A stretch of 16,535 nucleotides of DNA. Origin: Gemmatimonadota bacterium. GTDB lineage: Bacteria; JBHIER01; G020348925. The translations under genes and the position numbers were made by a program. Position 1 is the stretch's first letter; each line of letters begins with the position of its first letter. Below the pieces are notes generated by a model. It searched no databases and was not told where the DNA came from. It worked only from the letters and a program-made list of their open reading frames with translations. Positions 11,374 to 16,535 of this stretch are shown in pieces. Where the stretch lies: contig CP070758.1 of the NCBI GenBank assembly GCA_020348925.1, positions 1,356,971 through 1,373,505 of the forward strand, given 5' to 3'.

Positions 11374-14300
11374 CTACTTCAGAAGAACCAGTTTCTTGGT
11401 GGCCGTGAAAGCATTGGCATGAATTCGATAGAAATAGACGCCGCTTGCCACATGGGATGCATCCCATGTGGTCTTATAAAAACCGGCTTCCTGGGTGTCG
11501 TCAACCAGGATATCGATCTCTTGTCCGAGTAAATTACATACGTCTAATTTCACTTTGGCTGCCTCTGGTAAAGCATACTCAATGGAGGTCAGCGGATTGA
11601 ATGGATTCGGATAATTTTGAGCCAGGTTATACTCGGTGGGGACGGGGACAATCTTTGCTGTCGCGGTCAGGACCCGTCTCTCATTAACCAAGGCCGACAC
11701 GTCCAATGTCTTGGGCGACATGTCGGTAAATGTGACCTTCACTTCCGTCACGCTCCCGATTCCAGCAACAGCTACGCGAAGCACATCATCTTCAACAGCC
11801 CATTCGACCAGATCGCCACCGGCGGCACGAACTGCCGTTGGCTCCAAGTCGTCACATTTCAAGATCAAATCAACGGCGTAGGTTTCGGGATCAAAGGTGA
11901 ACACTATGGTATTCCCTCTGACTTGATAAGCCAGGTCACCACCCACACTTTTTGGAATGGTTGGCAGCCAGTTCTGGGTCACATCACCGATGATTACCGT
12001 TTCAAACAACTCGTAGAGATGTTCATTCACCAAATCTGAGTAGCATGCACAAGACTGACCATGTTGCTGTCCCAGATCGCCGTTATATTCAAAGATCCAC
12101 TCACCGATATGCTCAGAGGGTAGGAGGGGCGTACCGCTGTTATTGCTGACCACCCACTTCACGATGGTTGAGGCATCAAAAGCAGAGACCGTTCCATCGC
12201 CGGTCACGTCAGCCGCCAGGGAATAGTTGTGACTCAGGGTGATCTGACCGCACAGGGCCCGCAGAATCATGACCGCGTCGAAAGATGTGACAATCTGATC
12301 TTCGACCGTCAGGTCGTTCTCTCTGGACGGCTCAAGACAGAAAGCACTGCATCCAGGCCAGGCCGCGGATGAAAACCATCCACTTGCATCGGTCACAACA
12401 GCCGATGAGGCTTCTGCGCCGCATTCCCAAACCGTTGTCACAGACACGCCAGGCACCCACAAGGTATCAGTATCACTGTAGAAGATCCTGCCAGTTACGG
12501 CGAAATCCCTGACGTGCAGGTACTGGTGATCAACCCAGCAGCTCGTCAGATCACCTTCGTTCACCTTGACATACTCGATACTCAAATCCAGAATAGTGGA
12601 AGTCTCCAGATTATGGGGAACCTTAAAACCCACGTAAGCCATGGCGTACCAAGGACAGACCTCATATTCTCCATAGAAGAAGTTTTCCAGGGTATCGTTA
12701 AAGGCCATGGCGATTTGAATCTTGTCATCGTCCACGCGGCAGGTCATAATCCCGGCCTGCTCGGTGTCCAGTCCTTCGTTGCCTATCTCAAGAAGCTCAA
12801 GCCTGGTATCATAGTCCACTTCAAAGTACAGAGCCCAGATCGGCGGGATTAATGCAGCTTCATAGTCAAAGTGAATGGCAATGGGGAATTCGTACTCACC
12901 GCATGCATGGACATCCGTGGTATCAAAAGGCAGATCAACATAACCGTGTTCGTAGGGTGCTGATGGATCGCCTGGATCCGGGCCGTCATCCGGAGGTGGA
13001 AGCGCCCAGGCTCCCATAATATCACAATTATCCACGATGAAATGAACCGAGAGGGTATCGAAGAGCGGCTGGTCCGTCTCCCATGTGGAGGAAGCAATAA
13101 AATCGATCCAAATATCATCGCAGGTCCCCAGTTTGGGTGGATGCCACTCAAAGAGAGCCACCGCATCGCCACAGCCGACCACCGTATCACTGACACCGGC
13201 CACAGCGCCTTGACCTGCAAAGGTGGCCCTGTCCATCCAGGGGCATAGCGAAAAGGTTTCGGCCCAGAGCCGAATGCTGTCACCGCAGGGATGGTGAGTG
13301 TCGATGTCATGATCGCTGGCATGGACAAGGGCGCTGAAATCGTGTGACTCCTGCAGGAAAATGGTGTCGATGGTATCAGGTGCCGTCTCACCGTTCCAGG
13401 TTATCACCGGCGGAGAATTGACCTGAAAGAGTCCATGTGTCACTTCCACGCACGGCCAGCCCTCATTCATTATCGCTTCATTGAGGATAATGGGTGAATC
13501 ATCACCAGGAGCAGCAGAGCCATTCACGTGAAATTGCAGTATGACCAGGCAGCTATCGCACGATACCACACTCGCGGCTTCACCTCCGCTTATCAACCAC
13601 GCTTGTACGATACTCCGGTTTCCGCCCGGATGTTTCCACTTCAGATCCCATCCTGTCGAATCCAGGCATGTGTTCTCAAGGGTAAATGTCGAGTCGAACC
13701 AAATCACCGTTGTATCAAACTCCAGGCTGAAAAAGAGGGAATTCACATACTCCTCATCGAGACTGTGAAATCTTGAATCTGTCTGACAAATACAAACCTG
13801 GAAGACTGAATCTGGCTTAGCGATTGCCTTTTTTGGACAGATACCCATTGAGAGAAGGGGACAGTTCAACAGAGTGACTGTGAAATCATCTTTTTGGACA
13901 GTGCCAGGATCGTCGGTGACGATATCCGGAACCTCGTTGCTGGTCACAGTTCCTTGATTCATAACCTCCGTGATACCGGGAGGTAGGGGATCACGAATGG
14001 TTACGACGAACGTTATGGTCACAGTACCACCGGGCGGCACAAGCCCAATGCTTACACCGACGACCGAGTCTCCAGCTTGGTTACCGTTCGTAACAGTTCC
14101 CTGGGATGTTGAGACGCTACCGGAGACTAAAGACGTGTTCACATCAGGTGCATCGATAAAGGTAACGCCTGTGATCGGAGTCAAACCCGTGTTGGAAACT
14201 TTAACAAGGTACAGAATGTCATCTCCGGGGCTGAATGGATTGACGCCGTCACGCTCGGCATATAATAAGGCCGACTTCACCGCAGACAGTCTCATAGGAG

Positions 14301-14424: not shown

Positions 14425-16209
14425 ATCAACAATGACACTGGCGTTTGGGCCAAGAGGACCCAGATTATCTCAGGCAAGTTTTGAACCATCATTATCATTC
14501 CACGGTATTGTAGCCTCCACTGGAGAAATACATCCCTCCGGATAGTCGTCAGTCAAAGGCAACAATGGGAGGCTCGTTGTCCCAGTATTCAGAATTTTGG
14601 TCCGAAAAATGAGATTGTTACATACAGTGACAATTCCGCTTGGTGGATCGATCAGTGTTTTCGTAACCTGTAAAAAGGATTCAACCAATTCCACGTTGGC
14701 CGTGTCTGAGTTATCAGGGACATGAAATCCGTATTCATCTTGAGCCCCCCCGACCGTCACCCTATTAACCGTCAGCCCGCAAGCATTCATTACGATGAAT
14801 TCTGTCTTCACGTCTATGAAGGAACCGGTGTATATTGTTGGATCCAGGGATCCCAGATTATTCCAGACAATTGTTCCGCTCACATGAGTATCCGGAGCTG
14901 GCTCAGCCTTCAGAAAGGAGAGGCATCCTGGATCGTATATATCTTCGAGAGGTAGAATGGCTATGATCGTGTTGCCCGAGTTGAAAATGGTAGTGTGAAA
15001 AGCAATTGTATCACCTACCTGCGCGAAGCCCAAAAATGGATCAGTAAGGTTTTTAGTGATCTGCACTTCAGGCTGCAACAGATTCGCCGTAGTAATCCAA
15101 GAGTCGTCGGGCACCGGCATGCCAAACTCGTTCTCAGCCCCTATTACTGATACAGTATCTGCCGTGTTACCGCACGGGGCAAGAGCCTGAAATGTCACCT
15201 CTACCGTATCAAAAGCTCCAGTCCACAAAGGACCAATATTGTCCCAAGTAACCCGACCGGATATTGATGCATCCTCCGCCGGAGTGGAGGAGACGAAACT
15301 GAGACATGCCGGATCGTAATGATCGTGCAGAGGTAAAAGCGTAATGATCGAGGACCCCGTGTTTTCAATTACAATCCGAAAAATCACCGTATCTCCCACT
15401 AGAACTGCACCGCTTATCGGCTTTATTGCACCCTTCTCCACATGAACACCCGTCTCATCAATATCCACATCGGCCGTATTCTGGGCGTCCGGAACAGGGA
15501 AACCATATTCATCCTCAGCCCCGCTGACAGTGGCCGTGTTGATAACCGAGTGACACGCAGCAAGCGCCGTGAAGCTGACTGTTGCAGTCTTGGAACCTCC
15601 GACACCCAATGGGCCAATATTGTTCCAGGTAAGCTGCCCTCCTGTCAGGCCATCCGGGGAGGGTGACGCTGATTCAAAACTGAGACAGACGGGATTGTAA
15701 GAATCCTCCAGGGGCAGTAGCGTGATCTCTGTCGTACCCGTATTTAGTATCTCAATCTCAAAGATGACCGGATCACCAACTTTGACCGTTGGTGCAGAAA
15801 TCCGGTTTTTGATCACCACAAGCCCTTGCTGAACCAGCTCCACAAAAGCCGTGTCCGACTGATCCGGCACCGGTGTACCAAACACGTCCTCCACACCGAT
15901 CACCCCGGCCGTGTCAATAGTCACTCCGCACGGCGCAAGGGCCGTGAAATTGACAGTCACAATCATAGTATCACCGGCTTCTAGGAGACCGAGATTCTCC
16001 CAGATTATGGTCCCCTCTACATGGTCTGTCTGCACGGGACTGGCCCATAAGAAACGGAGACAAGCTTGATTATAGCTGTCAACGAGAGACGTCATGGTCA
16101 AAGTCGTGCATCCGCTGTTCTGAAGCACAATCTCAAACACTATGAGATCCCCGACAGTGGCAGCAGCATTAGTAGGCATCGTTCTTTTCTTCTTCACCAT
16201 CAGATCCGG
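14305..16209 (-). repeat. Five tandem DUF11-type protein repeats of about 125 residues
   Basis: Five units share the order V-GD-(I/V)-F-x3-(I/L)-x-N-(T/S)-G, then D-x-Y-(N/D)-x2-C-(L/I)-S-F, then W-(D/N/E)-N-(I/L)-G-x-L, then A-C/P-C-G, then DE(Y/F)G-x-PVPD. The unit starts are near 16209, 15828, 15450, 15072 and 14679. The fifth unit is split by the TGA at 14470, yet its second half (DNLGPLGPNASV ... VDEFGVQLPPDADEATV) aligns with the others in the same frame. Confidence 0.85.
14470..14472 (-). other. In-frame TGA at the position of a conserved Trp
   Basis: The codon sits in ...SKLA-TGA-DNLGPLGP... where the four preceding repeats read IIWENLGLL, LTWNNIGPL, VTWDNIGPL and IVWNNLGSL. A single base (plus-strand T instead of C at 14470) converts TGG to TGA. 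The frame is open for about 690 codons upstream and 1031 codons downstream. Confidence 0.9.
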
Positions 16210-16535
16210 TTGGGCAAACCCCACAGAACCCGTGGCACTGGCCGTGCATCCACCGTTGTTGCAGCTCACCGTATAGGTGCCGTTCCCGTTGTCGGTGATC
16301 GTTTCCGTGCCGATATTACACCCGCCGCCGGCAGCATGAACCGCATTCACCAGATCGGTCTGCGTATAGCCGCTGCACACTGTCACAGGCGGGGCATTCG
16401 GCGTTGGCCTTTGGATGAGGGTGATGTTGCCCGTGGCACTGGACGTGCATCCACCGTTGTTGCAGCTCACCGTATAGGTGCCGTTGCCGTTGTCGGTGAT
16501 CGTCTCCGTGCCGATATTACACCCGCCGCCGGCAG
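14470..16535 (-). CDS. N-terminal-side part of the giant surface protein: Cys-rich repeats and DUF11 repeats (5' partial)
   Basis: The frame is open to the window edge, so the true start lies beyond 16535. The GTG at 16470 is internal to a repeat and is not a start. The visible part begins with about one and a half copies of a 67-residue Cys-rich repeat (CNIGTETITDNGNGTYTVSC, NNGGCTSSATG, then PPVTVCSGYTQTDLVNAVHA). It continues with DUF11-type repeats of about 125 residues. Such repeats occur in large adhesins and S-layer-like proteins that stack beta-sandwich domains outside the cell. As sequenced, translation stops at TGA 14470, inside the fifth repeat. The product would lack the cohesin-like, dockerin-like and sorting domains, so it should not be retained at the surface by the usual route. 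It is probably one gene with the downstream frame. Confidence 0.85.
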   Translation of the reverse strand, partial: AGGGCNIGTETITDNGNGTYTVSCNNGGCTSSATGNITLIQRPTPNAPPVTVCSGYTQTDLVNAVHAAGGGCNIGTETITDNGNGTYTVSCNNGGCTASATGSVGFAQPDLMVKKKRTMPTNAAATVGDLIVFEIVLQNSGCTTLTMTSLVDSYNQACLRFLWASPVQTDHVEGTIIWENLGLLEAGDTMIVTVNFTALAPCGVTIDTAGVIGVEDVFGTPVPDQSDTAFVELVQQGLVVIKNRISAPTVKVGDPVIFEIEILNTGTTEITLLPLEDSYNPVCLSFESASPSPDGLTGGQLTWNNIGPLGVGGSKTATVSFTALAACHSVINTATVSGAEDEYGFPVPDAQNTADVDIDETGVHVEKGAIKPISGAVLVGDTVIFRIVIENTGSSIITLLPLHDHYDPACLSFVSSTPAEDASISGRVTWDNIGPLWTGAFDTVEVTFQALAPCGNTADTVSVIGAENEFGMPVPDDSWITTANLLQPEVQITKNLTDPFLGFAQVGDTIAFHTTIFNSGNTIIAILPLEDIYDPGCLSFLKAEPAPDTHVSGTIVWNNLGSLDPTIYTGSFIDVKTEFIVMNACGLTVNRVTVGGAQDEYGFHVPDNSDTANVELVESFLQVTKTLIDPPSGIVTVCNNLIFRTKILNTGTTSLPLLPLTDDYPEGCISPVEATIPWNDNDGSKLA
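16229..16535 (-). repeat. Tandem 201-bp (67-residue) Cys-rich repeats, nearly identical in DNA
   Basis: The segments 16229-16334 and 16430-16535 differ at only about three of 106 bases, with an exact 201-base period. Each copy encodes four cysteines in its visible core. The second copy is cut by the window edge, so the full copy number is unknown. Near identity at the DNA level suggests recent duplication or ongoing recombination. Confidence 0.9.

Follow-up and report, generated by a model that had tools for sequence, protein, structure and literature searches.

We found that a giant surface-protein gene in the analysed window (the whole stretch of 16,535 nucleotides), which belongs to the assembled genome of an uncultured bacterium, is interrupted by a single in-frame TGA. 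It is probably one T9SS cargo gene in which a single-base change, whether fixed or polymorphic, has recently turned a conserved tryptophan codon into a stop. On the minus strand, the upstream part of the frame (16533-14473; 687 aa, carrying DUF11 repeats, its 5' end cut off where the contig ends) and the downstream part (14469-11374; 1031 aa, terminating in TAG) are in phase, and the TGA at 14472-14470 is all that separates them. The residues at the break read ...DNDGSKLA*DNLGPLGPNAS..., the asterisk marking the stop, and the column that the stop occupies is Trp in all sister repeats. In the repeat alignment, the four sister repeats upstream of the TGA have WENLG (Trp codon at 16000-16002, minus strand like all features given here), WNNIG (15625-15627), WDNIG (15244-15246) and WNNLG (14863-14865) at this place. 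In a search with the broken repeat across 0.88 Mb of this genome, Trp occupied the column in 23 of the 23 other true sister repeats, which come from the giant gene and its sampled paralogues; two extra weak matches (E > 0.2) were left out of this count as not being repeats. No gap is needed to align the nearest paralogue (G000:C1, about 3.323 Mb) across the stop, and identity is 68% in the 40 residues that precede the stop and 75% in the 40 that follow it. Because of the invariant Trp and this gap-free alignment, the two frames are, as judged from the alignments, one interrupted gene, and chance juxtaposition is excluded. The original prediction had described, without naming a strand, two in-phase frames of a single gene split only by TGA, a Trp expected at that codon, and a repeat whose second half continues past the stop; all of this is borne out, with the minus strand now added.

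DUF11 repeats above the Pfam cut-off lie on both sides of the stop, at 15514-15816 (40.7 bits) and 15139-15408 (30.7 bits) upstream and at 13912-14232 (32.9 bits) downstream. The downstream part also holds a dockerin type I-like segment (PF00404, 12163-12303, 30.7 bits against a cut-off of 22.9) and a T9SS type A C-terminal sorting tail (Por_Secre_tail, 11386-11613), which is recognized by both the Pfam model (37.5 bits against a cut-off of 27) and the NCBIfam model (37.6 against 23). The TGA precedes this tail by about 950 residues, and the tail is lost if translation stops there. The genome codes for the SprA translocon (TIGR04189, 708 bits within one frame, cut-off 200), and the sorting tail should therefore function in this organism. 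Given SprA and the roughly 150 T9SS sorting tails found genome-wide, the giant gene, by its domain content, encodes one of this organism's many T9SS cargo proteins. Its true 5' end, including the signal peptide, lies beyond the contig end and a gap of 100 N; an apparent in-frame join to an upstream HdrA-like gene was rejected as an artefact of this gap. As an observation in its own right, about 150 sorting tails and SprA occur here in a lineage for which the collections searched contain no relative closer than the same domain.

In the sequence of events that we favour, a single-base change would have turned the conserved Trp codon into TGA, and it may be fixed in the strain or be one allele among several. 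Translation would end at the TGA, yielding a product without the last DUF11 domain, the dockerin-like part and the sorting tail. Since the sorting tail follows the stop, such a truncated protein would presumably be neither exported to nor anchored at the cell surface, and the downstream half, without an export signal of its own, would be silent. The downstream half also bears on the age of the stop. Its 1031 codons contain no further stop and no frameshift, which bounds the neutral divergence since the stop arose at about 0.01-0.03 substitutions per site (95%), a bound that depends on the assumed indel rate; between the paralogues, which are about 50-60% identical, dN/dS would be saturated. 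Under a leave-one-out HMM the sorting tail reaches 123.6 bits, in the middle of the 47-146 bits spanned by 69 intact tails from this genome; by contrast, conserved residues have visibly been lost from the tails at L139:8940 and L144:7628. Because the downstream half shows no decay, the stop is either recent or absent from the cell. A recent nonsense change fits the picture drawn by a published survey, in which in-frame stops in bacterial genes are widespread but mostly short-lived, lasting about as long as polymorphisms within a population (PMC7918605).

The base at the stop rests on the assembly consensus of one genome, and a scan of GTDB contigs with TilS found no close relative (best identity 41%). 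The TGA could be wrong, introduced by sequencing or in the consensus of a draft metagenome assembly, with an intact gene in the cell; we consider this reading unlikely but still a serious one. The genome record is a single sequence of 5.04 Mb, of which we sampled 1.28 Mb in stretches, and it is a scaffold: 62 N gaps were seen in the sampled part, and all 53 gaps that were measured (in 0.88 Mb) are exactly 100 N each. The window is exactly one such contig between two 100-N gaps. Its first 30 bases are almost pure C and are fused to a truncated HppA frame, and its other end carries two direct repeats of 106 bases (16229-16334 and 16430-16535; 97% identical, 201 bases apart). The presence of a nearly identical copy of the terminal repeat would explain why the assembly breaks at that end. 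An absence of decay downstream of the stop is what a consensus error would leave as well. Against an error, the window's other genes are intact, the poly-C contig end excepted. A mis-assembly that drew in a paralogue is also unlikely, as the next best match anywhere in the genome reaches 72% identity and the 300 bases around the stop have no exact 18-mer in common with the sampled remainder.

Interrupted frames elsewhere in the genome bear on an error from both sides. They were sought by paralogue tblastn over the sampled genome, and the many stops backed by a single query that are antisense artefacts were not counted; this search replaced an earlier codon-usage scan, which had missed the TGA site and returned mostly antisense artefacts. 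A Ser/Thr kinase gene (L163:9466, minus strand) has a single in-frame TAG between otherwise intact flanks, with eight supporting alignments, and an ABC transporter ATPase gene (L186, G000:C1:4599278-4599703) has an in-frame TAG in its Q-loop motif (IGVAP*TLAIYEEL). Isolated stops of this kind in otherwise good genes are in line with consensus errors. Further interrupted frames are those of a TPR protein (TAG) and a transposase-like frame (TGA), and decayed copies of sorting tails or kinases are interrupted by TGA or TAA. We discarded a dockerin-like candidate (L178:9263), in which a TGA lies close to a column that is Trp in part, because that column is mostly gap and a frameshift lies nearby. 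Most conserved domains scanned genome-wide are clean, which speaks against an error: one TAG was found in 25 near-complete kinase domains and one TAG in 33 strong ABC ATPase domains, and no stop in 53 response-regulator or 50 DUF11 matches. The nearest paralogue of the giant gene (53% identical) has itself lost its sorting tail through a small frameshift inside it (L006:6880-7150; G000:C1, about 3,322,880-3,323,150), at a place with no long homopolymer. Because TAG, TAA and TGA stops and this frameshift interrupt other genes, such lesions are a background of the assembly or the organism that extends over all three stop codons and is not specific to TGA, a point that counts in favour of an ordinary nonsense change.

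Programmed or tolerated readthrough, in which an amino acid would be inserted at the UGA part of the time and a little full-length surface protein made, is quite improbable. The downstream frame is intact and the residue expected at the stop is Trp, which is the classical near-cognate insertion at UGA. Moreover, in-frame stops in bacterial genes under purifying selection have been reported (PMC7918605). But with so young a lesion, an unbroken frame downstream is neither evidence for readthrough nor a sign of selection. TGA is also a common normal stop in this genome, closing 85 of 201 long frames sampled (TAA closes 78 and TAG 38), and RF2 is present and intact. Among the 39 tRNAs read, the sole tRNA-Trp has the anticodon CCA, the sole TCA anticodon belongs to a tRNA-Sec, and no tRNA-Trp(UCA) was found. 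Changes that let tRNA-Trp(CCA) read UGA have been described, namely a 4-bp anticodon stem, A9C and G24A (PMC13092985). The present case has in common with that system a UGA at a Trp position, but none of these features was seen in the tRNA-Trp of this genome, which has the canonical 5-bp stem, A9 and G24. The RNA past the stop is not unusually structured either: no SECIS-like stable hairpin was found directly after the TGA, where 48-61 bases fold no better than shuffles (z of -0.15 and -1.2).

It is slightly more doubtful still that the TGA belongs to an on/off polymorphism, with recurrent small lesions in the population cutting the sorting tails off giant surface proteins, so that surface display would vary between cells. 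This reading draws on the stop found here together with the frameshift that disrupts the nearest paralogue's tail.

That there are two separate genes, with a normal gene end at the TGA and a separate downstream start, is hardly credible. A GTG start is available 15 codons past the stop, but the stop falls within a single repeat that runs on gap-free beyond it, and starting at this GTG would cut into the repeat. Furthermore, the first residues from the GTG, MTFHADNPCDPATNFALVDQ, do not resemble a signal peptide, and a protein that began with them could therefore not reach the T9SS. Insertion of selenocysteine at the TGA deserves equally little credence. The genome does have a real tRNA-Sec (65.8 bits, anticodon TCA, G000:C1:405376-405470) and SelB (396.5 bits, G000:C1:2518263-2520152), yet the column is Trp and never Cys in the sister repeats, the hairpin that a SECIS would provide is missing from the position directly 3' of the TGA, and we know of no DUF11 or T9SS selenoprotein. 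Quite apart from this gene, the tRNA-Sec and SelB indicate that the lineage probably makes selenoproteins. A code in which TGA is read as Trp throughout the organism has nothing in its favour beyond a TGA at a Trp column and is refuted by RF2, by a tRNA set in which TCA occurs only on SelC, by the many frames that end in TGA and by the interruptions through TAG and TAA.

Recoding is, in all these forms, poorly supported. The original prediction had already called a TGA=Trp code unlikely, a judgement that RF2, the tRNA-Trp with anticodon CCA and the frequent use of TGA as a normal stop uphold. It had also offered a nonsense mutation, a read error, programmed readthrough or a population mixture as explanations; readthrough has found no positive support, whereas the other three are kept, and the assembly alone does not tell them apart. 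The observation is sound, and its explanation is most likely an ordinary one that involves no novel use of the genetic code. If the stop is real, the gene is a further instance of turnover among the very numerous T9SS surface proteins of this lineage (about 150 sorting tails). More generally, an isolated in-frame stop in a metagenome scaffold whose contigs are joined across gaps should be backed by reads before recoding is invoked.

The recent nonsense change that we favour can be set beside three known systems. As in the survey of bacterial in-frame stops (PMC7918605), a single in-frame stop lies in an otherwise intact frame; the survey used stops common to at least two species, whereas the present one comes from one genome with no relative. 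With T9SS type A cargo proteins (TIGR04183 / PF18962), the giant gene has in common a repeat-rich architecture, a C-terminal sorting tail above both cut-offs and SprA in the same genome, but its frame is closed by a TGA before the tail is reached. With DUF11 / B_ant_repeat surface proteins (PF01345, TIGR01451), it has in common the tandem DUF11 repeats, found here on both sides of the stop, and it differs from them in that one repeat is broken at its conserved Trp.
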